From Methylobacter sp. S3L5C (GTDB taxonomy: Bacteria; Pseudomonadota; Gammaproteobacteria; Methylococcales; Methylomonadaceae), in contig NZ_CP076024.1 in assembly GCF_022788635.1 (NCBI RefSeq), positions 2,976,001 to 3,040,000 on the forward strand: a DNA stretch of 64,000 nucleotides, read 5' to 3'. Numbering within the stretch: position 1 is the first letter of the stretch; each line of letters starts with the position of its first letter. Shown here piece by piece: positions 22,351 to 33,358 of the stretch. A program made the translations under genes and the position numbers. A model generated the notes under the pieces. The model was not told where the DNA came from, ran no database searches, and worked only from the letters and a program-made list of their open reading frames with translations.

Positions 22351-24777
22351 ATGCTCACACCTCCATTTACAATACGGCCTTGGCTGGCGGCTTTACCCTT
22401 TTCTCTGTTGACAGTGCCGGTGTATGCGGCAGATATTTCTTCAACGCCTCTCATCCAGCCCGTGCCACTATTTAGTCGTTCGTTTATGGCCCCAGAGCAG
22501 TCTGAAACTAAAGCGCCTGTAAAAGCTGATGATAAAGAACTCAAGGTAGCCGGTAACGGGGGAAATCAGACTGTCGTTACTGCGCATCCGGTTGATGTTT
22601 TTGAACTGCCCGATATAGAAGTCGTCAGTAATACGCCGTTGGGAACTACTGGCCTTGAACTTAAAAAAATTCCCGGTAATGTCCAGTCTGCTGAGGATGA
22701 GGACATTAATCGTCACGAAGCTTTTGGTTTGACGGACTTTATGAATCGTCGCCTGGAAAGCGTCAATATTAATGACACCCAGAACAATACCTACCAGCCG
22801 GATATTTCTTATCGTGGCTTTACTGCATCTCCTCTTTTGGGTACGCCTATAGGCATATCCGTTTATCAGGATGGCGTGCGTGTCAACGAACCGTTTGGCG
22901 ACACCGTCAACTGGGATTTGATTCCGCAAATAGCAATTGCCAGCATGGAAATGATTCCGGGCTCCAACCCGTTATTTGGTTTAAATACACTCGGCGGCGC
23001 ATTGTCAGTCAGAACCAAAAGCGGGATTAGTCATCCCGGCTTTAATGCGCAATCCAGTGGCGGCTCTTATGGTCGCCAAACTTATCAGGCCGAATACGGT
23101 GGCTCCAAAGGTAATTTTGATTGGTATGTTGCCGGCAATATTTTCCGTGACAATGGCTGGCGTCCTTATTCTCCAACCAGTGTTAATCAGACGTTTGGTA
23201 AGGTCGGCTGGGAAAATGATCGTACCGATCTTGATCTATCATTTACTTTTGCCGACAACAATATGCAAGGTGTAGGTGGTACCCCGCAAAACATGTTAGA
23301 GCAAAGCTGGACTGCTATTTATACGGCTCCAGACGTGACTAAAAATACCCTGTATTTTTTTAATCTAAAAGGTAGCCATAAGATTACTGATAAATTGCAA
23401 TTGACCGGCAATAGCTATAATCGCAATAACAACAGCAGTAGCCTTAACAGTAATACCGATGGAAACTGTTCTAACGGGGTTACTGGGGTCACGGACTCTC
23501 AATGTTTTGATATCGACGGTAATCTTCTTGTTGATGCTAAAACTGGCGCTCCCGGCTCTTTTCAAGCCACTCAAACGAAACAAAACGGAACGGGTGTCAA
23601 TTTACAATTAACTTCCGATTACAAAATCTACGCACATGATAATCAACTGGTCGTTGGTGGTGGTTATAATGTTGGTGATACCCATTTTTCTATGGGATCG
23701 CAGGATGCGGTTTTTATGCCAAACCGGAATGAAGTCGCCACCACTCCACTGGCAACCAGTGTGATGATCAATGGGCAAAATACTTACTCGACTGTTTTTG
23801 CTACCAATACTTATTCCTTGTTTGACTGGCTACATGCCAACACGTCAATAAACTGGATGCAGGCACAGGTTCGAACTACCGATCAAATAGGAACGGCACT
23901 GAACGGTAAAGACGTTTATCAACGTGCAAACCCGTCAGCAGGCTTAACGTTTAATCCATTGGATGCGTTTGCGTTGGACACCCCGCTTGAAGAATTTACG
24001 ACCTATTTTAACTACAACGAAGGTTTTCGGGCACCGACTGCGGTTGAGTTAAGCTGCGCAGATCCCCTTGCACCGTGTAGTTTGCCGAACAGCATGATTT
24101 CCGATCCACCCTTGAAGGCCGTGGTTTCTCATACTTTAGAAGTGGGTGCGCGTGGCAAATTTAGTCAGGTGCTCAAATGGAATTTTGCGTTGTATCAGAC
24201 TCGCAATACCGATGATATCTTGTTTCTGAGTAGCGAAGGTAGCAATGTAAATGGTTATTTTCAAAATGTAGGCGCAACACTACGTCAAGGTGCAGAGTTT
24301 GGTTTAAGCGGTCTGGCCTGGAATAAATTGAATTGGTATATGAGTTACGGTTTTGTTAATGCGACCTATCAAACGACAGCCGTGCTCAATAATGCACTGG
24401 GGCCGGAAACGGTTACACCGGGTAGTAGAATCCCCAGTATTCCGCAAAACACACTTAAGATTGGTGTCGAATATCAAGTATTTCATAACGGTTTTTTGGG
24501 CAGCGATTTACAGCATGTTTCCAGCCAATATGCCCGCGGCGATGATCAGAATCTCTATTCACAAATACCGGGTTATACGGTGGTTAACCTTAATGCCCGT
24601 TATGTTGTAACCAAAAATATTGAGTTGTTTGCCACAGGTCGCAACATTCTCGATAACCACTACACTTCGTTTGGACAACTGGGAACAAATTTTTTCCAAA
24701 ACAATCAGTCAACTACATTTATGGGGCCGGGTGCGCCTGCAACCGGTTATGCTGGCATCCGCGTACATTGGAACTGA
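22351..24777 (+). CDS. TonB-dependent outer-membrane receptor
   Basis: An 808-residue TonB-dependent receptor. The signal peptide is at residues 1-26 (cut after VYA). A long low-complexity periplasmic linker follows, and a candidate TonB box is PDIEVVS near residue 90. The plug domain spans about 110-230, with the RRLESVNIND and QPDISYRGFTASPLLGTPIG motifs and GSNPLFGLNTLGGALSVRTK. The remainder is a 22-strand barrel ending in YAGIRVHWN with the terminal aromatic. The plug is of the kind found in ferric-siderophore and Fe(III)-dicitrate receptors, but the ligand cannot be assigned. The location next to cytochrome genes may hint at iron or haem acquisition; this is inference. Confidence 0.85.
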   Translation: MLTPPFTIRPWLAALPFSLLTVPVYAADISSTPLIQPVPLFSRSFMAPEQSETKAPVKADDKELKVAGNGGNQTVVTAHPVDVFELPDIEVVSNTPLGTTGLELKKIPGNVQSAEDEDINRHEAFGLTDFMNRRLESVNINDTQNNTYQPDISYRGFTASPLLGTPIGISVYQDGVRVNEPFGDTVNWDLIPQIAIASMEMIPGSNPLFGLNTLGGALSVRTKSGISHPGFNAQSSGGSYGRQTYQAEYGGSKGNFDWYVAGNIFRDNGWRPYSPTSVNQTFGKVGWENDRTDLDLSFTFADNNMQGVGGTPQNMLEQSWTAIYTAPDVTKNTLYFFNLKGSHKITDKLQLTGNSYNRNNNSSSLNSNTDGNCSNGVTGVTDSQCFDIDGNLLVDAKTGAPGSFQATQTKQNGTGVNLQLTSDYKIYAHDNQLVVGGGYNVGDTHFSMGSQDAVFMPNRNEVATTPLATSVMINGQNTYSTVFATNTYSLFDWLHANTSINWMQAQVRTTDQIGTALNGKDVYQRANPSAGLTFNPLDAFALDTPLEEFTTYFNYNEGFRAPTAVELSCADPLAPCSLPNSMISDPPLKAVVSHTLEVGARGKFSQVLKWNFALYQTRNTDDILFLSSEGSNVNGYFQNVGATLRQGAEFGLSGLAWNKLNWYMSYGFVNATYQTTAVLNNALGPETVTPGSRIPSIPQNTLKIGVEYQVFHNGFLGSDLQHVSSQYARGDDQNLYSQIPGYTVVNLNARYVVTKNIELFATGRNILDNHYTSFGQLGTNFFQNNQSTTFMGPGAPATGYAGIRVHWN

Positions 24778-25513: not shown

Positions 25514-26938
25514 ATGTGTCAATTAGCAGATGGGCATAATTTCAACGTTAAAAATAAGGCGTACTATGCAGATTTTTTTAAAACGGACGTACGATGCAGG
25601 CTTTTTTTTGCATCGCCTTTAGCTCTTGCATCAATTATTTTAGTAGCCAGTCCGGGTGTGGAAGCTACGCCAAGTTTTTCCCGGCAAACAGGGCAAAACT
25701 GTAGTACCTGCCATACGCAAGCTTTCGGGCCTAACTTGACGCCTTTCGGTCGCGATTTCAAATTGGGTGGCTATACCATGAGTGGCGGTTCCGGCATTGC
25801 TGCCAAATTACCAGCACTGAGCGGCATGGTAACGGGATCATTTACCAATACTCAAAAAGATCAACCCAGCGGCACTCTCGCTCCTGGTTATAATCAAAAC
25901 AATAATTTCACTTTTGACCAAGCGTCTTTGTTTTATGCGGGTCGTGTCTATGGCAAAGTGGGCGCCTTCAGTCAGTTAACGTATGACGGTTATAGTGATC
26001 GGCTTGCCTTGGATAATACCGATATCCGTTTTGCCGACCAATTAGATTTGGATTCCTTAATAGGTTTGGATATTCCAATGACTTATGGGGTGTCTTTAAA
26101 TAATAATCCAACCGTTCAGGACTTATGGAATACAACGCCAGTCTGGGGCTTTCCTTATACCAGTAGCGGCGTGCAACCGGGTAGTGTAGCTGCACCCTTG
26201 ATTGACGGTGCATTGGGATCTCAAGTAGGCGGAGCTACCGCCTATACCATGATTAATAACCTGCTTTATCTGGAAGCGGGCGCTTATGGTTCATTTTCCA
26301 GCAATTCCCAGAGAGCCTTTGGTGTTGCCGGGCCTGACCGGGTTAGTCTGAGTAGTCCTGCGCCTTATTGGCGTGCCGCATTGCAACAGAACTGGAAAGG
26401 GCACTATTTCTCGGTAGGCCATTACGGTATGAGTGCCGATGTTGTTCCCGGACGTGACCAGACCAATGGTGCCGATCATTATACGGATGTTGCTGTCGAT
26501 GCGAATTATCAATATATGGCGAATCCAAAACATATTTTTGAAGCCAAAACATCATATATCTATGAAGATCAGCGACTGTCTGCAGGACGACAGGCAGTCG
26601 GTGATCCTTCTACCGGTAACACCTTTTTGACGTCGTATAAACTGAATCTGGCTTATACCTTCAACCAGACTTACGGTATTACTTTCGCTTATAACAAAAC
26701 TAACGGATCACGCGGCCCCATTATTGACCCTGCTGCTCCCGCTGATGCAATCAAACCCAATAGTCAATTTTATACCGCAGAATTGGTTTATGTCCCGTTT
26801 GGTAAATCCAGTTCGTATTTATATCTGATGAATTTGCGTACCAGCCTGCAGTATATAGGTTACTCTCAATATAACGGCACCAATACTGATGCCCAGAATA
26901 ATAATACTTTCATGGTCAATGGTTGGTTGGCGTTCTAA
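25514..26938 (+). CDS. Cyc2-like outer-membrane cytochrome-porin fusion, copy A
   Basis: A 474-residue exported protein. A hydrophobic signal segment (LALASIILVASPGVEA) is followed by TPSFSRQTGQNCSTCHTQAF with a single haem-binding CxxCH (C63, C66, H67) and LTPFGRDFKLGGYT. The remaining 380 residues are beta-strand-rich, aromatic and Asn/Thr-rich and end in WLAF, as in an outer-membrane barrel. That architecture (one N-terminal haem then a barrel) and the SFxRQTG...CxxCH...FGxxFKLxGY motif are those of Cyc2, the Fe(II)-oxidising outer-membrane cytochrome. Function here is inferred. The start is uncertain: the first ATG gives a long 33-residue leader, but no closer in-frame start exists. Confidence 0.75.
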   Translation: MCQLADGHNFNVKNKAYYADFFKTDVRCRLFFASPLALASIILVASPGVEATPSFSRQTGQNCSTCHTQAFGPNLTPFGRDFKLGGYTMSGGSGIAAKLPALSGMVTGSFTNTQKDQPSGTLAPGYNQNNNFTFDQASLFYAGRVYGKVGAFSQLTYDGYSDRLALDNTDIRFADQLDLDSLIGLDIPMTYGVSLNNNPTVQDLWNTTPVWGFPYTSSGVQPGSVAAPLIDGALGSQVGGATAYTMINNLLYLEAGAYGSFSSNSQRAFGVAGPDRVSLSSPAPYWRAALQQNWKGHYFSVGHYGMSADVVPGRDQTNGADHYTDVAVDANYQYMANPKHIFEAKTSYIYEDQRLSAGRQAVGDPSTGNTFLTSYKLNLAYTFNQTYGITFAYNKTNGSRGPIIDPAAPADAIKPNSQFYTAELVYVPFGKSSSYLYLMNLRTSLQYIGYSQYNGTNTDAQNNNTFMVNGWLAF

Positions 26939-26993
26939 GCCCAATTAACCTACCTGTTTTTTTCGAATCGATTTGCTGACCTTACAAAGTATG

Positions 26994-27016
26994 GGCAAGG
27001 TAAAAATGACCTTGCC
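26994..27016. terminator. Hairpin between copy A cytochrome and the next gene
   Basis: GGCAAGGT (26994-27001) pairs with ACCTTGCC (27009-27016) across a 7-nt loop. No T-run follows on the plus strand, so it may be an RNA-stabilising or attenuating stem rather than a strong terminator. Confidence 0.35.
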
Positions 27017-27078
27017 TGTAGCTCTGCTTTCAGAAAACTTCACCACGATACTCATCTCCTCATTGTTTAAAAAATATT

Positions 27079-27621
27079 ATGGTCAAAGAACGTTATACCC
27101 GCTTTAAAGATATTTCCGTTAGCGAACGAATTTTAAATACGGTGTTTTTGTTAACCATAGGTTTAGGTTATCTGATGGCGCTTGCGAATATGTATTACAC
27201 CCATCAAGGGCTTGACGGTAAAGCAGGACTGTCTATTGAAGATGTTGTCATTAGTTATCATGGCTCAAGTAATCAAACGCGATTGGGTAGCGCAATTAAC
27301 GGGATTATGGAATCCAATTTAAAATATAACAGCGATAAAGATATTATTTTGCAATGGATAGAGCATGGCGCCAACGAGCCGGAATATAACGAAAAAATCG
27401 CTCCGATATTAAATCGTGATTGTATCCTGTGTCATACACCCAGTGTTAATCCGTCATTACCTGATTTAACGCATTATGCGACGGTATCAGAGGTTGCGCA
27501 TGCCGGTGGTGCAACAATTCCTACTTTGGTTCGCGTATCGCATATTCATTTATTTGGCATTGCCTTTATTCTGTTTTTTATTGGAGCCACTTGCAAAATT
27601 ATCGACCGAAAAACGCGGTAA
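27079..27621 (+). pseudogene. Membrane-anchored monohaem protein, N-terminal part
   Basis: 180 codons with two hydrophobic helices (about 18-40 and 150-172) around a periplasmic domain that has one haem site, CILCHTP, near residue 116, followed by DLTHYATVSEV. The start of the domain, YYTHQGLDGKAGLSIEDVVI, and the ending VSHIHLFGIAFILFFIG match a proteobacterial family often mislabelled elongation factor 1-alpha. Those proteins continue with two or three more helices. Here the frame stops after IIDRKTR, and a fragment that looks like the missing C-terminus (NVYVKRVAVVIPFAAML) reappears beyond a transposase gene at 28976-29266. I therefore read it as an interrupted gene, although the N-terminal half could still be expressed. 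It follows the Cyc2-like gene by 140 bp. Confidence 0.55.
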
Positions 27622-27757
27622 GTTGCACATGACTTCTAATAAGTCGTTTTTTGAACAAATGGCTCACTATTAGGCCATTTACACTGTAATCTTATCGTTT
27701 GTATAAGAATCAGGACATAGTTATCCCTACTATCCATAAAATAACCTTGTTATAGCC

Positions 27758-28957
27758 GTCAAAATGATTTCTAGGTCACTAAAATCACCATCTGATTGGC
27801 TGTTAAGGCAAGAAGGCCAAACATCAAATGACACATCACCTTTGCATGACCGCGGACTCGCACAACCCGTCCACCAAACTCATCTTTCAGTCGACCATTA
27901 ACACGCTCAACAGTACTACGCTCGTTATAGCGTATTGCTTCGGCCATTCTATGTCCGACCAATCGACAACGTTTATTTTCAGCCGTCAGTTCTTCTTTTA
28001 AGGCTTTATCCCGACGAGGATGCACATCAATCAGCGGAATGTGCCCCAACTGTCGGCTCATGTCGTGAATCTGCGGCACATCATAAGCAGAATCCATGAC
28101 ATCATAAAGATTAGTAACGCGCTCATTACTTATTATTGCTAATGGAATAGCAACCTGGCTGTCGTGAGTAGAGGCGGAGGTCAATACCGCGCTGATAGGA
28201 ATACCGCCATCCGCCACATCGATGTGTAACTTATAGCCGATCCAGCTGACTTTATAACCCTTACTGTTTTTCTTGGTGCCTACGTCGCAAGCTGTCGGCA
28301 AATCGTTAAGCATGTCCGCCATATCCATACCACTGGCTTGCCGCTCAATACGGGTCAATGGTTTAATGCGTTCTTCGCCTTTTTTAGGACGTCCACGTTT
28401 TGCTGCTATTTTCTGGATAGGTTCCTTTTTGAGCGGCTTTTCCCGTGCCTCTATCGCGGTTGAATCGCGAGAATTATGCCCCACGATTTCGCCTGCATAG
28501 CTTTTTTTAATAAACGCTTCATGAACCCGCTCAGGTAAACGATATTTCGAGAACTCGGCAAATGCCCTTGAGAATGTCCACTCATCAGGGACATCGTTTT
28601 TGCGCTCCCAACCGCAAATCCTTCTTAAGGCGCTATCAGCCTCTAATCGATCCAGTAAAGCGCGTGTCGTCGGCAGGTTATAAATCGTTTTTGCCACAAA
28701 TGCCCTGGCTATGGCCGAGCGGTCTTGAGGCGGACGTCCTGGAAATCCAGCACTGGAATAGATGAATTCTTCGATGCGTACCACTTCTAAGGTGGTCACC
28801 AATTCCTGTTGTTTCTCGGTCAGTGGCCCCAGTTCTTCTGATAACCAAGGAAATAATGAGCTTTGTATATTAAGCCATGTCTGTGATAATGTATCTCGTA
28901 ACCTACTCATACTATTAATAATAATTAGATTTTTAATCTTCTATTTTATCATTTTGA
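27758..28957. mobile_element. IS5/IS1182-type element inserted in the cytochrome cluster
   Basis: The transposase gene is bracketed by short inverted repeats TCAAAATGAT (27759-27768) and ATCATTTTGA (28948-28957). A GCC on both sides (27755-27757, 28958-28960) may be a 3-bp duplication, but the exact ends are uncertain. About 1.2 kb. Confidence 0.6.
27771..28910 (-). CDS. IS5/IS1182-type DDE transposase
   Basis: A 379-residue transposase. An N-terminal region has LTEKQQELVTTLE and RPPQDRSAIARAFVAKTIYN, then LRRICGWE and WTFSRAFAEFSKYRLPERVH. The catalytic portion begins at IVGHNSRDSTAIEARE with the first Asp, continues through a Lys-rich GRPKKGEE linker and YDVMDSAYDVPQI with the second, and ends with NERSTVERVNGRLKDEFGG containing the Glu. 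The frame is intact and the three acidic residues are present. It is read against the cytochrome genes and likely interrupts their transcription. Confidence 0.8.
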   Translation of the reverse strand: MSRLRDTLSQTWLNIQSSLFPWLSEELGPLTEKQQELVTTLEVVRIEEFIYSSAGFPGRPPQDRSAIARAFVAKTIYNLPTTRALLDRLEADSALRRICGWERKNDVPDEWTFSRAFAEFSKYRLPERVHEAFIKKSYAGEIVGHNSRDSTAIEAREKPLKKEPIQKIAAKRGRPKKGEERIKPLTRIERQASGMDMADMLNDLPTACDVGTKKNSKGYKVSWIGYKLHIDVADGGIPISAVLTSASTHDSQVAIPLAIISNERVTNLYDVMDSAYDVPQIHDMSRQLGHIPLIDVHPRRDKALKEELTAENKRCRLVGHRMAEAIRYNERSTVERVNGRLKDEFGGRVVRVRGHAKVMCHLMFGLLALTANQMVILVT

Positions 28958-28975
28958 GCCAGTTGTTTTTCTTTT

Positions 28976-29266
28976 TTGGCTATTCTGGCTACTAATTCCG
29001 CTCGCTTTAACGGGTTTTGCAAGTTCCTCATTGGTAAAATGTTTTTGCTCTGTGACCTTAATGTTTATGTGAAAAGAGTCGCGGTAGTTATTCCTTTTGC
29101 TGCCATGCTTTTGGATATTTTGTCCTGGTTTATTACCAAATCCACGCCTGCGTTTGCCTATGTGGTTGTATATAGCGGAGCCTTAATGGGCTTGTCAATG
29201 GGCCTGCAAATCCTGCTCAGCATTTATCAGATGTGGTTTTATTCCAGGAAAATAACGGATAATTGA
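28976..29266 (+). pseudogene. C-terminal fragment of the membrane monohaem protein family
   Basis: A 96-codon frame whose residues from about 20 on (MFLLCDLNVYVKRVAVVIPF then ILSWFITKSTPAFAYVVVYS) form three hydrophobic helices and end in LLSIYQMWFYSRK. This resembles the C-terminal membrane part of the protein whose N-terminal half is at 27079-27621. It starts 19 bp after the transposon end with no ribosome-binding site, consistent with a severed gene. The two halves do not join perfectly after removing the element, so additional rearrangement is likely. Confidence 0.5.
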
Positions 29267-29936
29267 TTGTTTCAGTATGTCACGTAGTGGTTCAAGCTTG
29301 TAACTATACAAGATATAACGGGGTGAGTTTTAAGAATAGTTTTATAAGCTTTTGAGCTGCGATAAGGCCTAAATTTCTATGAATACCAGAATGTTATGCA
29401 GTAATTGGGTTTGCCACACCCAGCACCGAAGCTTTTAACAGGAATATCTTAAAAGCGAGGCGAACAGGATTAATCGGTAACCTGGCAGGTTTTAGCTCGT
29501 TCTCAAGTTTCGGTTGGGAGCGCCATTTTCTTTTGCCGGGCAAAGAAAATGTTTTTGCCTTCGGGGCGATAATCAGATCAACATCACACGTTGCAATAAT
29601 GCAACGAACGCTGGCTATATAATTATCTGCTTAACAGCAGTTAGCTTATGATAAAAATATCAAACCCCCGTTATTTTTCTCCCATTTTTACCTCGTGATG
29701 ACCTTATTTTTTGGAAAAAAAGGTGATTTGATTAGCTGACAAATGCTGGCAGCTTATTAAACTATGTTATTTAACACAACGTAGTCTGTTTATTGTGTTA
29801 AATAACATAGTTTAATAAATAACATAATTCTATTTATAGGCTGTAGTCAGTATTTTCGTGGTGTGTGCTGATTGGCATCAAACGTGCTTTATCATATGAA
29901 GATTCTTTTTTCAAATATAACCACACGACACTTGCG
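29267..29936. promoter_or_regulatory. Upstream region of cytochrome copy B with a perfect 26-bp palindrome
   Basis: About 670 bp without a gene. The notable item is a perfect inverted repeat: arms 29754-29779 and 29793-29818, 26 nt each, loop of 13 nt. The arm centre contains ATGTTATTTAACAC, and AATAACATA is repeated again just after the right arm (29820s). Smaller palindromes are CGTTGCA-ATAA-TGCAACG (29589-29606) and a bulged CATTTTCTT...AAGAAAATG near 29531-29560. The large palindrome is about 120 bp before the probable start of the next cytochrome and could be a cruciform, an operator region or a terminator for both strands. Confidence 0.5.
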
Positions 29937-31382
29937 ATGCTTAACCTTATATTTTTTAACGAGCAAAAAAAATGGTTTCTTTTATATGGCATTTTTTTGA
30001 TATTACCATTTCAAAATGTGTTGGCAACTACGTCGTTCGCAAGACAAACCGGTGAACCTTGTACGGCATGTCATGTGCAGGCTTATGGGCCTTGGTTAAC
30101 GCAATACGGCCAAAAATTCAAGCTTGATGGCTATGTTGCCGGTCATGCCAACAAGTTACCTGACGTAATCAATCCGTTAGCCGTCCAAATAATAGGCTCG
30201 GTGACTAATACGCAGCAGAACAATGATAGTGACCCGTATTACAGTAATACCGCCGGACACTCAAACTCCAACAATAATGTGCTGGCTGACTGGGCGGCGG
30301 TGTATTACACCGGCCGGATTACTGATAAAATCGGCAGTTATCTTCAGTTGAACATCAATCCGCAAGCGGGACGCTCAGTCAGTCTTGCCATGGCCGATAT
30401 ACGGGTGGCTGATCATGCAAATATCAGGGGCAACGCTATTACTTACGGACTTACCGTAAATAATGCGCCGACTATATCTGATTTTTGGATGACAACGCCA
30501 GCGTGGATGTATCCTTACACCCAATCTTCAGTGACCATAAAACCCGCTGCCCAGCCTTGGCTACAGGCTTTAATGGCGGGTGCCAATACGGCCGGTGCAA
30601 CCGCTTATACAATGATCAATAATCATCTTTATCTGGAAGCCGGTGGTTATACGTCTCAGTCGCAAAATATGGCGCAAGGCTTGGGAGTGTGGAACGCCGG
30701 CTCTCAAAGTTCAGGGCCGCAAGGTGGGCTTATTGATGGTGGTGCCCCTTATTGGCGGATGTTTCTACAACACAGTATGGGGCCACATACCATGATGATT
30801 GGCACTTACGGCTTGGCAGCCAAAGTTATTCCCTATTATACAACCGGTATTGGCAGCAATTCTTATGTGGAATACAATGCTGACGCCAATTATTCGTACA
30901 TGCTGGATGACGATAATATGCTAATGGCAATGACCAAATATACGCATGACACGATGAAGATGGACGCTTCTTATCGGGGTGGCTATGCGAGCAATACCAG
31001 TAATTATCTCGACAGCGTTATGATGATGGGAATGTGGACTTACCGGCAGACTTACAATTTGTCGGTAGGGTGGAACTATATGAAAGGCAGTTCAGATATG
31101 ACAATTTATAACGGTGCTGCAAATTATAATCCTGATAACCCGGTAAATCCTGTGTTTGGCAGTGCCAACGGCTCGCCAAACACTAATTCGTTTCTTTTTG
31201 AAGCGGACTATATACCGTTTGGTAAGGGCACCTTTGGCGCTGACCCCTATTTAAATATGCGTCTTTCGATACAATATTGGGCTTATACCCAATTTAATGG
31301 CGCATCGACAAACTATGATGGTTCAGGACGTAATGCGGCAGGAAACAACACGCTTTACTTTGTCGGCAACGTAATGTTTTGA
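29937..31382 (+). CDS. Cyc2-like outer-membrane cytochrome-porin fusion, copy B
   Basis: With the start at the ATG 29937 the product is 481 residues; an in-frame GTG at 29865 would add 24. The signal region KKWFLLYGIFLILPFQNVLA is followed by SFARQTGEPCTACHVQAYGP with the single haem motif (C42, C45, H46) and LTQYGQKFKLDGYVAGH. The rest is a long aromatic beta-strand-rich region ending in LYFVGNVMF with a terminal Phe, as in outer-membrane barrels. It shares with copy A the order haem, FKLxGY, barrel, and the strand GATAYTMINN.LYLEAG. Probably a paralogue. Proposed role: electron transfer across the outer membrane; direction of flow cannot be told. Confidence 0.75.
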   Translation: MLNLIFFNEQKKWFLLYGIFLILPFQNVLATTSFARQTGEPCTACHVQAYGPWLTQYGQKFKLDGYVAGHANKLPDVINPLAVQIIGSVTNTQQNNDSDPYYSNTAGHSNSNNNVLADWAAVYYTGRITDKIGSYLQLNINPQAGRSVSLAMADIRVADHANIRGNAITYGLTVNNAPTISDFWMTTPAWMYPYTQSSVTIKPAAQPWLQALMAGANTAGATAYTMINNHLYLEAGGYTSQSQNMAQGLGVWNAGSQSSGPQGGLIDGGAPYWRMFLQHSMGPHTMMIGTYGLAAKVIPYYTTGIGSNSYVEYNADANYSYMLDDDNMLMAMTKYTHDTMKMDASYRGGYASNTSNYLDSVMMMGMWTYRQTYNLSVGWNYMKGSSDMTIYNGAANYNPDNPVNPVFGSANGSPNTNSFLFEADYIPFGKGTFGADPYLNMRLSIQYWAYTQFNGASTNYDGSGRNAAGNNTLYFVGNVMF

Positions 31383-31393
31383 GGTAAATCGCT

Positions 31394-31801
31394 ATGAAAT
31401 ATAATTCAAAAACGAAGACTGTTGTAATGACTTCCATCCTGTTATGCCTGTTGGGTTTTTTCATCCAGTCTCATGCCGTGCGTCTATCCGGTTCATGCCC
31501 TACAAGCCACACTATGGATATGAGCGGGATGGCTACGAATAATAATGCAATTAAATCCGTTGGCAAGCTTGCAGAAGCGCAATGTAGTAATTGCCACGGG
31601 ATAGACGGTAATGGCGTCAATGCCTCTGATGATGTACCTAATTTAGCGGGGCAAGAATTTATGTATTTGTGTGCCTGGCTAAGTGAATGTCGTAAACGAG
31701 GCAATAAATGTGAAGGTCATGAAGATATTGCTGCTCATCTTAGCGATCATGACATTGTTGGTTTAGCCATGTTTTATACCCACTCCCCCTCTAAATGGTA
31801 G
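31394..31801 (+). CDS. Exported c-type cytochrome (class I-like)
   Basis: A 135-residue protein with a signal peptide (TSILLCLLGFFIQSHA), one haem motif AQCSNCHG (C64, C67, H68), a PNLAGQ segment and a C-terminal helix GLAMFYTH whose Met could be the axial ligand. It has extra cysteines (LCAWLSECRKRGNKCEGHED) that may form a disulphide and are unusual for small class I cytochromes. It starts 11 bp after copy B, so it is probably co-transcribed; likely a periplasmic partner of the outer-membrane cytochrome. Confidence 0.75.
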   Translation: MKYNSKTKTVVMTSILLCLLGFFIQSHAVRLSGSCPTSHTMDMSGMATNNNAIKSVGKLAEAQCSNCHGIDGNGVNASDDVPNLAGQEFMYLCAWLSECRKRGNKCEGHEDIAAHLSDHDIVGLAMFYTHSPSKW

Positions 31802-31809
31802 CCTGAGTT

Positions 31810-32160
31810 ATGGAAACTATTAAAATATTGCGGCTATTGATGGCCTGTGGCCTTATAGCGTTCACTTTCTATCTGTCTGGATGCTCAATCTTTGAAAAAG
31901 AAAATGCCGCCGATACCATGGCTGCGACAGAACAAACGGCTTACTATACTTGCGATGGATGCCATGGACCCAATAATATCCGTGTTGAGTCTATGTCACC
32001 AAAAATTATAGGACAGAAGAAAGTTTATCTTGCTGCCAAATTACGTGATTTCCGGGATATGAAACGGATTAATCCCTATATGAATGGTGTTGTGGCAAAA
32101 CTTACCGATCAGGATATCGATAATTTGGCCGCTTATTATTCAAATTATGGGCGCAATTGA
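31810..32160 (+). CDS. Lipoprotein c-type cytochrome
   Basis: A 116-residue protein whose leader ends in the lipobox LSGC (Cys25), followed by one haem site YYTCDGCHGPNN (C48, C51, H52). Downstream, ESMSPKIIGQKK and a C-terminal LTDQDIDNLAAYYSNYG follow the class I cytochrome c pattern; a Met in YMNGVVAKL may be the sixth ligand. It should be a membrane-tethered periplasmic cytochrome. It is encoded 8 bp downstream of the previous cytochrome, so the pair is translationally linked and may act in sequence with it. Confidence 0.75.
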   Translation: METIKILRLLMACGLIAFTFYLSGCSIFEKENAADTMAATEQTAYYTCDGCHGPNNIRVESMSPKIIGQKKVYLAAKLRDFRDMKRINPYMNGVVAKLTDQDIDNLAAYYSNYGRN

Positions 32161-32311
32161 TATGACTGTGCTTCGTCAATTGGGTTACCTTTATTCTCAT
32201 GTTTGAGAGTGTATCCAAGGTGATTTTATAACCAGAAGCCAAGATAATTAGTCTTTCTAATAGAGGCATTAAGTCTTTAGAGCCCAAGCTGTTAACTTAC
32301 AAAAGATCATC

Positions 32312-32719
32312 ATGAAATATATAGGCATCGCTCTCCTGGCCAGTTTGGTCATTACTTTTTCTGCCAGGGCAGAGCAACCGCAGGATTTTCTCAGTATCTT
32401 TGCTGCACAGGCAAAGCTGGATAAGGCTGGTTTTGCCGGCTTTGATGTCAGTCGTGGTCAGCAATTCTTTAAGTCACAACACGGTGCTGACTGGAGTTGT
32501 TCTAGTTGCCACACCGATAATCCCACTTCGATGGGTCAACATATTGTGACTAAAAAAGACATAAAGCCAATGGCGCCATTAGTTAATTCTGAACGCTTTA
32601 CCAATCCCGAAAAAGTTGAAAAATGGTTTAAACGCAATTGCAAGGATGTGCTGAAGCGTGAATGCACCGCTCAAGAGAAAGGTGATGTATTAGTCTACTT
32701 ACTGTCATTGGGTCGCTAA
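32312..32719 (+). CDS. DUF1924 / sphaeroides-heme-protein-like cytochrome
   Basis: A 135-residue exported protein: signal ITFSARA, then RGQQFFKSQHGADWSCSSCH (haem C63, C66, H67), HIVTKKDIKPMAPLVNSERF and the C-terminal KVEKWFKRNC with REC (a Cys pair that forms a disulphide in SHP). This is the SHP/DUF1924 family, high-spin cytochromes c that bind oxygen or related ligands and usually occur with a cytochrome b561 and a dihaem cytochrome. The cytochrome b561 follows 18 bp downstream, matching that arrangement; a typical dihaem partner is not seen, although the small cytochromes just upstream could substitute. Confidence 0.85.
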   Translation: MKYIGIALLASLVITFSARAEQPQDFLSIFAAQAKLDKAGFAGFDVSRGQQFFKSQHGADWSCSSCHTDNPTSMGQHIVTKKDIKPMAPLVNSERFTNPEKVEKWFKRNCKDVLKRECTAQEKGDVLVYLLSLGR

Positions 32720-32737
32720 AAAGATGAGAGAAATTTC

Positions 32738-33358
32738 GTGAGTCAACGCATACTCGTATGGGATCTGCCGACCCGTATTTTTCACTGGATGCTGGTGCTG
32801 AGCTTTACCGGGGCCTTTTTAACTGGTGAAAGCGAGCGTTGGCGTGACTTCCATGTGCTGTTTGGCTATACCGTGCTGGGTCTGGTCACGTTTCGTCTGA
32901 TCTGGGGCGTTATTGGTTCGCGCTATTCACGTTTCTCGGAATTTGTGCGCAATCCGGTTTATGTCATTCGTTATCTTGTCCAATTAGTTAGAAGGCATGA
33001 ACGGCATTCTGTCGGTCATAATCCACTGGGCGCATTTGCCATTCTGTTACTATTGCTGCTTGGCATTGCCAGTGGCATATCCGGTTGGGCAGTTTACGAA
33101 GAAATTGATAGTGATTGGTTGGAAGCGTTTCACAACTTAACATCTACTGCAATGTTGGTAGTGGTCTTTATACATATTACCGGTGTATTGTTTAGCAGTT
33201 ACTTTCATGGTGAAAATCTTATCATTGCGATGATTACAGGTAAAAAGCGAGGAAGAACCGATCAGGGTATCTCTACTAGTCACCCTCTGATAACCATGCT
33301 CTTGTTAACAGCACTTATCGGCTTTTGGATTTTTGCCTGGCCCGGAGTCAAGAGATGA
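32738..33358 (+). CDS. Cytochrome b561 / b-type transmembrane cytochrome
   Basis: A 206-residue protein with four to five membrane helices. The haem-ligand histidines are in FHWMLVLSF (TM1), FHVLFGYTVL (TM2), FHNLTSTAML and FIHITGVLF (TM4), as in the b561/Ni-hydrogenase cytochrome b family. It starts with GTG at 32738 after a GAGAGA site. It follows the SHP-like gene closely and should move electrons between the quinone pool and the periplasmic cytochromes. It ends the cytochrome operon. Confidence 0.85.
   Translation: MSQRILVWDLPTRIFHWMLVLSFTGAFLTGESERWRDFHVLFGYTVLGLVTFRLIWGVIGSRYSRFSEFVRNPVYVIRYLVQLVRRHERHSVGHNPLGAFAILLLLLLGIASGISGWAVYEEIDSDWLEAFHNLTSTAMLVVVFIHITGVLFSSYFHGENLIIAMITGKKRGRTDQGISTSHPLITMLLLTALIGFWIFAWPGVKR

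Follow-up and report, generated by a model that had tools for sequence, protein, structure and literature searches.

From a comparison of gene orders, two independent modules that each encode an outer-membrane porin-cytochrome of the Cyc2 family appear to have come to lie side by side in the methanotroph Methylobacter sp. S3L5C, at positions 25514-33358 of the 64,000-nucleotide stretch of its genome that was analysed (the window). Module A comprises cyc2A and the gene of a membrane-bound monohaem protein, here called the partner protein; module B comprises cyc2B, two small cytochromes c, an SHP-like cytochrome and a cytochrome b561. The explanation we prefer, although we give it slightly less than an even chance, is that module B serves extracellular electron uptake and carries a quinol-fed branch with a gas-binding haem, and that module A is damaged. 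Our inferences on the direction of electrons, on their donor and on what SHP-b561 and the partner protein do are as follows. Cyc2B would accept electrons from a soluble extracellular donor, either Fe(II) or humic matter in reduced form, and pass them to the respiratory chain through two cytochromes, the small periplasmic one and the lipoprotein. SHP and b561 would form a side branch, fed by quinol, that holds a gas-binding haem in the reduced state and most likely handles NO or O2 species when oxygen is low. Module A would supply a second Cyc2, with an inner-membrane monohaem partner of its own. The homology, gene order, conservation, damage and SHP/c' exchange described below are observed in the genomes compared.

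The S3L5C genome is a single chromosome of 4,815,745 bp (PMC9723741), assembled as a PacBio and Illumina hybrid. A report from 2025 states that S3L5C encodes two cyc2 genes, that their expression at 20% methane differs from that at 1%, and that cyc2 expression goes up in response to dissolved organic matter (PMC12211021). Since a Cyc2 profile finds just two full-length matches and one C-terminal remnant in the genome, the two published genes are very likely cyc2A and cyc2B of the window. Comparative evidence rules out chance open reading frames (ORFs) for the window genes, because gene order is conserved in relatives and the ratio of nonsynonymous to synonymous substitution rates (dN/dS) is 0.08-0.19 in eight comparisons covering six window genes.

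An earlier, sequence-only reading of this DNA, which took the host to be a possible methanotroph, had pointed to two outer-membrane haem-barrel ORFs akin to Cyc2. Both are present on the forward strand, cyc2A at 25514-26938 (474 amino acids in the open frame) and cyc2B at 29937-31382 (481 amino acids, motif TSFARQTGEPCTACH; homology places its start at 29937 and not at 29865), and their kinship with Cyc2 is upheld by the tree, the profile matches and the barrel model. The proteins align along their whole length with 29 relatives; each carries a single haem-binding CxxCH at the N-terminus of the mature protein, and the three residues of this motif are invariant in all 31 rows of this alignment. 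Neither Cyc2A nor Cyc2B matched Pfam or NCBIfam at E 0.1, and the best match of Cyc2B to the Protein Data Bank (PDB) by sequence reached only E 0.12. The structure model of Cyc2A has 16 strands at modest confidence (mean predicted local distance difference test score of 64), and the barrel of Cyc2B is assigned by alignment only. A fold search with the Cyc2A model retrieved porins, including OprP and OprO, with E-values down to 3e-8 and TM-scores of about 0.4-0.55; Cyc2 has likewise been matched to porins including OprP/OprO before (PMC8406198).

When genomes of the class were searched with the Cyc2 profile, 61 of 369 gave matches, the strong ones mostly full length and the weak ones confined to the N-terminal part. 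In 20 further genomes, 18 matches were found, all to the N-terminal part only, and these 18 were all the genomes tested from families f47 and f67, which we take as Zetaproteobacteria (f67 by inference). A search for the rusticyanin family, made for an acidophile anchor, found it in 5 of 369 genomes, one of which (G706, locus L272) was useful: read by eye, its operon encodes Cyc2, a cupredoxin, CoxB, CoxA, haem synthases and a rusticyanin-like protein, the last scoring 137 bits, below the family cut-off of 146.7. In a tree of 87 of the 112 collected proteins (a quick search with supports from the approximate likelihood ratio test, SH-aLRT, and without bootstrap), Cyc2A, Cyc2B and the L272 protein share a clade of 54 rows with SH-aLRT 100, and the 21 rows taken as zetaproteobacterial fall outside it. 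One long branch, L273, lies within the clade. As a separate observation, this locus, from a genome of the class, contains close to its Cyc2 homologue an open frame with 57 CxxCH motifs (L273:8816-14179).

The placement of both proteins in the tree agrees with the published label for Methylobacter Cyc2, which was assigned to cluster 2 with the FeGenie Cyc2 hidden Markov models (PMC12810054). As in cluster 2 (the Acidithiobacillus ferrooxidans type), a single CxxCH follows the signal peptide and is fused to a barrel of 16 strands, and the S3L5C proteins share a clade with rus-type Cyc2. Unlike the rus operon, the S3L5C cluster has no rusticyanin or cox genes, and from CxxCH to PxL, Cyc2A and Cyc2B are longer by two residues than rows such as L059 and L272.

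That all these genes form a single cluster, as the sequence-only reading had it, is not borne out. Among 12 genomes showing both modules, adjacency is seen only in S3L5C; the modules lie about 0.5 to 2 Mb apart in all three relatives where their distance is visible (G031, G858 and G921), and in the eight others they are on different contigs, where nearness is still possible. We therefore rejected the single-cluster reading. Module B itself looks like a mosaic. Among four relatives compared, G004, whose operon is of the cytochrome c' type, comes nearest over 29674-31459, the stretch that includes cyc2B (82% of bases). Beyond 31459, the SHP-type operons of G013 and G031 continue to match at 72-77%, and G004 shows just one stretch of 69.7%, in the lipoprotein cytochrome. 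Since the best-matching relative switches from G004 to G013/G031, the tail seems not to share the history of cyc2B. The synonymous divergence from G004 is 0.67 for cyc2B, 1.39 for cyc2A and 1.37 for the N-terminal piece of the partner protein.

Module B (29937-33358) looks intact. To describe its relatives we read 21 cyc2B loci, 14 from the 35 genomes of the genus and 7 from outside it; across the order, cyc2B occurs in 20 of 301 genomes at a threshold of at least 49% identity, and also in G033 of the genus. Directly downstream of cyc2B, on the same strand, are the two tiny class I cytochromes that the sequence-only reading had recognised: a predicted periplasmic one at 31394-31801 and one with the lipobox LSGC (identified by eye) at 31810-32160, each with one CxxCH. 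Two small cytochromes follow cyc2B in 19 of the 21 loci, the exceptions being G882, where one is seen beside cyc2B, and G876, where neither is seen and the stretch is partly masked.

The next two genes on this strand are also as first read: an SHP-like monohaem cytochrome with the DUF1924 domain at 32312-32719 (PF09086, E 4e-40) and a membrane-bound cytochrome b561 at 32738-33358 (PF01292, E 1.3e-26). The SHP-like protein matches PDB entries 1e8e (cytochrome c'', E 2.8e-22) and 1dw0 (E 3.2e-17), the latter of which we take to be SHP. Its Asn109, in the sequence KRNC, aligns with RNC of 1dw0, where 1e8e shows KHC; this Asn is presumably the sixth haem ligand of SHP, the position held by His in cytochrome c''. 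SHP and b561 occur together at 8 of the 21 cyc2B loci, 7 times downstream (once with an extra gene between the two) and once, in G921, upstream of cyc2B. Within the 35 genus genomes SHP is present in 7, always beside cyc2B and nowhere else (for the coincidence of SHP with cyc2B, which 14 of the 35 carry, Fisher p is 5e-4 without correction for relatedness). In four other loci (G004, G014, G017 and G032) b561 is found near cyc2B with a cytochrome c', with further genes between in two of them. SHP and cytochrome c' belong to different families (PF09086 and PF01322). Cytochrome c' is a gas-binding protein, and in the genus genomes it is also found apart from cyc2B, including in S3L5C. Mainly because SHP and c' swap beside b561, we read the tail as a gas-handling branch, not a wire; for SHP, gas binding is described in PMC2909971. 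The sequence-only reading had singled out the pairing of Cyc2 with SHP/b561 as novel, and the pairing is real and did not turn up in the literature searches made, but it is optional and belongs to module B only.

Module A looks damaged in S3L5C, where the start of cyc2A is one base off and an insertion sequence (IS) splits the partner gene, of which the genome still has an intact copy at another place. The cyc2A start homologous to that of relatives is the ATG at 25566, which follows AAGG and whose frame is shifted by one base from that of the gene body. The open frame begins instead at ATG 25514, where no ribosome-binding site was seen by eye and where the leader is longer than in relatives; the length difference aligns in a run of eight T within the signal peptide. 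The body of cyc2A has a dN/dS of 0.11 against G004, a value that speaks of past selection and not of present function. Phase variation through the T run is not claimed, a run of 8-9 T being found in just 4 of 17 cyc2A genes (the window and 16 relatives).

The N-terminal piece of the partner protein (27079-27583, forward strand) holds 168 codons with the first transmembrane helix, CxxCH and the start of the second helix, and its ORF of 180 amino acids extends into the IS, to 27621. The element itself (27584-29029, reverse strand, 1446 bp) has the ends GAGCCACTTGCAAAA and GAGGAACTTGCAAAA and a transposase gene at 27771-28910 on the same strand, and it is flanked by a target duplication of 4 bp (ATTG, 27580-27583 and 29030-29033); one further full copy, 99% identical, is present in the genome. 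The C-terminal piece, with two transmembrane helices, follows at 29034-29266 on the forward strand, and the corresponding ORF of 96 amino acids (28976-29266) starts within the IS. The membrane monohaem protein noticed by the sequence-only reading is thus real, but its 180-residue ORF is just the first 168 codons of a protein of 245 residues that the IS has split, and the notion that the two ORFs are separate genes was rejected, as they form a single frame in relatives. The split looks recent, for over 76 codons the C-terminal piece encodes the same amino acids as the intact copies in S3L5C and in G034. In S3L5C this intact copy is located some 1 Mb away, at 4.02 Mb, next to what is left of a cyc2A (approximately the last 55 residues), and a similar arrangement is seen in G034 (L061). 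The region L062:9014-10964 holds the second, intact partner copy, a cyc2A remnant and a protein of 241 residues that resembles, by eye, the one preceding cyc2A in L312.

In relatives, a membrane monohaem partner of about 245 residues adjoins cyc2A in 12 of 16 loci, in 11 of them directly downstream. Starting from the partner, we fetched the best 80 of 552 confirmed loci and counted adjacency in the 67, all from named records, with at least 1.7 kb of upstream sequence: a Cyc2 haem motif lies within 2.2 kb upstream in 26 of them and not in the other 41, a count that describes the partner and not cyc2A, since the loci were fetched by partner. The model of the protein has four long helices, read as membrane-spanning, with the haem domain between the first two; His155, His157 and Asp196 are invariant in 36 rows of the family. 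The S3L5C copy had no match in Pfam, and a fold search of solved structures with the model gave a best E of 1.2. Of 398 genomes from the phylum, 62 carry the family, and 59 of these 62 belong to f47/f67. These homologues, in genomes taken as Zetaproteobacteria (L096-L108 and L111-L113), share the four-helix monohaem architecture (best E about 1e-106) and differ in their surroundings, as no Cyc2 motif was found in the 16 loci scanned, some of them short. The partner would act as an inner-membrane electron carrier. A trihaem cytochrome of 273 residues stands close to a partner homologue in L107 and L193, the two loci whose neighbours were considered, and paralogues of the partner with 34-36% identity were seen at L036:757-1467 and L037:7058-8767, the two in L037 being in tandem and facing the cyc2A module.

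Several observations weigh against the preferred explanation. Cyc2A and Cyc2B are each one residue off the published Cyc2 motif AxPxFAR[QK][TY] (PMC8406198), Cyc2A (ATPSFSRQT) by Ala to Ser and Cyc2B (ATTSFARQT) by Pro to Thr, and the published motif screen, applied literally, would discard both; the rus-type Cyc2 of L272 departs from the motif as well (PAFARQL), and the Pro is retained in three of seven Cyc2B relatives outside the genus. The out-of-frame start of cyc2A could be a sequencing slip in the T run, which the hybrid assembly makes less likely without excluding it, and module A may still be alive, as the published work on the two cyc2 genes has them both expressed. The SHP-b561 tail is optional in module B and dispensable, because 9 of the 21 cyc2B loci show neither SHP-b561 nor c'-b561 in the stretch read. 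Three of the nine end at a contig end (G011, with b561 alone at the end and c' on another contig, and G033 and G871, whose contigs end soon after cyc2B), one is partly masked (G876), and five are neither, with no tail in the roughly 14 kb read in G012 or within the stretch read in G839, G848, G858 and G882. With modules A and B separate, A apparently damaged and SHP-b561 optional, the single route between quinol, periplasm and cell surface that was first proposed is not supported as stated. Finally, an operon of Gallionellaceae with two small cytochromes (Cytc1, Cytc2) and a b561-dihaem fusion (Cytbc) beside the mto iron oxidase has been read as a relay to quinone (PMC5566968), which would favour an inward conduit and lowers the odds of our preferred explanation.

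In that alternative, which we regard as unlikely, b561 together with SHP or c' would link the electrons of Cyc2B into the quinone pool, as a methanotroph counterpart of irc of Gallionellaceae. The irc cluster (Slit_1321-1324) consists of genes for a cytochrome b, a hypothetical protein and monohaem and dihaem cytochromes c, is induced by Fe(II) and has homologues in Mariprofundus (PMC8788666, PMC10734462, PMC12442390); the SHP operon, composed of a cytochrome b, the monohaem SHP and a dihaem cytochrome, is also present in Mariprofundus (PMC2909971). Since their gene make-up matches, as far as descriptions can be compared, irc may be an SHP operon. By description, irc and the Gallionellaceae operon share with module B a b-type cytochrome and small periplasmic cytochromes linked to iron oxidation, but no cyc2 is named in irc as described, and the dihaem component of both irc and Cytbc has no counterpart in module B. 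The latter resembles the SHP operon in that an SHP-type protein is followed by a b-type membrane cytochrome; we have not filed it as a classical SHP operon, for its two neighbouring cytochromes have one CxxCH each and neither is dihaem. Two more differences are that its SHP-b561 is joined to cyc2B and two monohaem cytochromes and that the ORF list contains no sensor-kinase gene within it. Against the conduit, no b561 tail was seen at 8 of the 21 cyc2B loci, the ninth locus lacking SHP or c' being the one with b561 at a contig end, and both SHP and c' are, partly from general knowledge, gas-binding types. Returning to electron uptake with a gas-binding branch, a generalisation to Methylococcales is possible, if still rather doubtful: cyc2B with two monohaem cytochromes would be an uptake operon to which a gas-binding haem driven by b561 has been attached repeatedly, the unrelated SHP and c' being interchangeable and irc being the unlinked version.

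An outward route, from quinol through b561 and the cytochromes to Cyc2B and on to Fe(III) or humics under oxygen shortage, is improbable. To our knowledge, no Cyc2 has been shown to act as a reductase. Quinol has been argued to reduce the b-type cytochrome of the SHP operon (PMC2909971), Methylobacter is found in an anoxic lake layer for which extracellular electron transfer by methylotrophs was proposed (PMC6344600), and PMC12810054 refers to methanotrophs using metal oxides as acceptor, but the function-verified Cyc2 of cluster 2 is an iron oxidase (PMC7029218) and the 54-row clade includes the rus-operon Cyc2. Least probable of all, the barrels might serve metal or haem handling or signalling with the neighbours as passengers, as the Met/His-rich N-terminus of the first module B cytochrome in several relatives, the TonB-dependent receptor upstream of cyc2A (22351-24777, same strand) and the cyc2 expression of Sideroxydans CL21, which does not track iron oxidation and led to a suggested sensor role (PMC12442390), would allow, but a passenger role is hard to square with two cytochromes accompanying cyc2B at 19 of 21 loci and with SHP standing beside cyc2B in all 7 genus genomes that have SHP.

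Cyc2 has been known in Methylobacter since 2019 (PMC6344600; also PMC12211021 and PMC12810054, the latter reporting cluster-2 Cyc2 in Methylobacter genomes), so that the expectation of a module not well described for this lineage holds for the linkage and not for Cyc2 itself. Figures and supplements aside, the parts of these three papers considered here do not describe gene neighbourhoods, the IS split or an SHP/c' linkage. Our literature search, which likewise covered texts without figures and supplements, found neither cyc2B with SHP-b561 or c'-b561, nor the cyc2A partner, nor the damage to module A, and its matches for cyc2 with b561 concern neutrophilic iron oxidisers and Acidithiobacillia only. 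The linkage and swap at cyc2B, the partner protein and the damage in S3L5C were thus found in no paper. They bear on the path of electrons from Cyc2 to the inner membrane in bacteria living at neutral pH, for which the two cytochromes by cyc2B, the exchangeable SHP/b561 or c'/b561 tail and the four-helix monohaem protein by cyc2A are linked candidates, and they offer concrete genes for testing electron exchange of methanotrophs with iron or humic matter. In a cultured lake methanotroph whose cyc2 expression is raised by dissolved organic matter, this has a bearing on methane removal in browning lakes; it also carries the warning that the two cyc2 genes of S3L5C are not equivalent, one module looking broken.

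Upstream of cyc2B, a perfect inverted repeat with arms of 26 nucleotides and a gap of 13 occupies 29754-29818 and is a candidate operator. Within the 450 bases that precede cyc2B, 14 of 21 loci have sites with at most two mismatches from the 12-base core of this repeat, and every one of the 14 has a site between -140 and -280 (cyc2B starts are approximate in loci outside the genus), as against a mean of 2.5 loci and a maximum of 9 in 200 first-order resamples; as the relatives share descent, this evidence is weak. No regulator of the repeat was recognised. Related sites are present in the S3L5C chromosome near 774162, 3210131, 3219697 and 3221862. We do not claim a regulon, since such sites also adjoin unrelated genes; by eye, some lie near genes for PEP-CTERM-like, ApbE-like and two-haem proteins.

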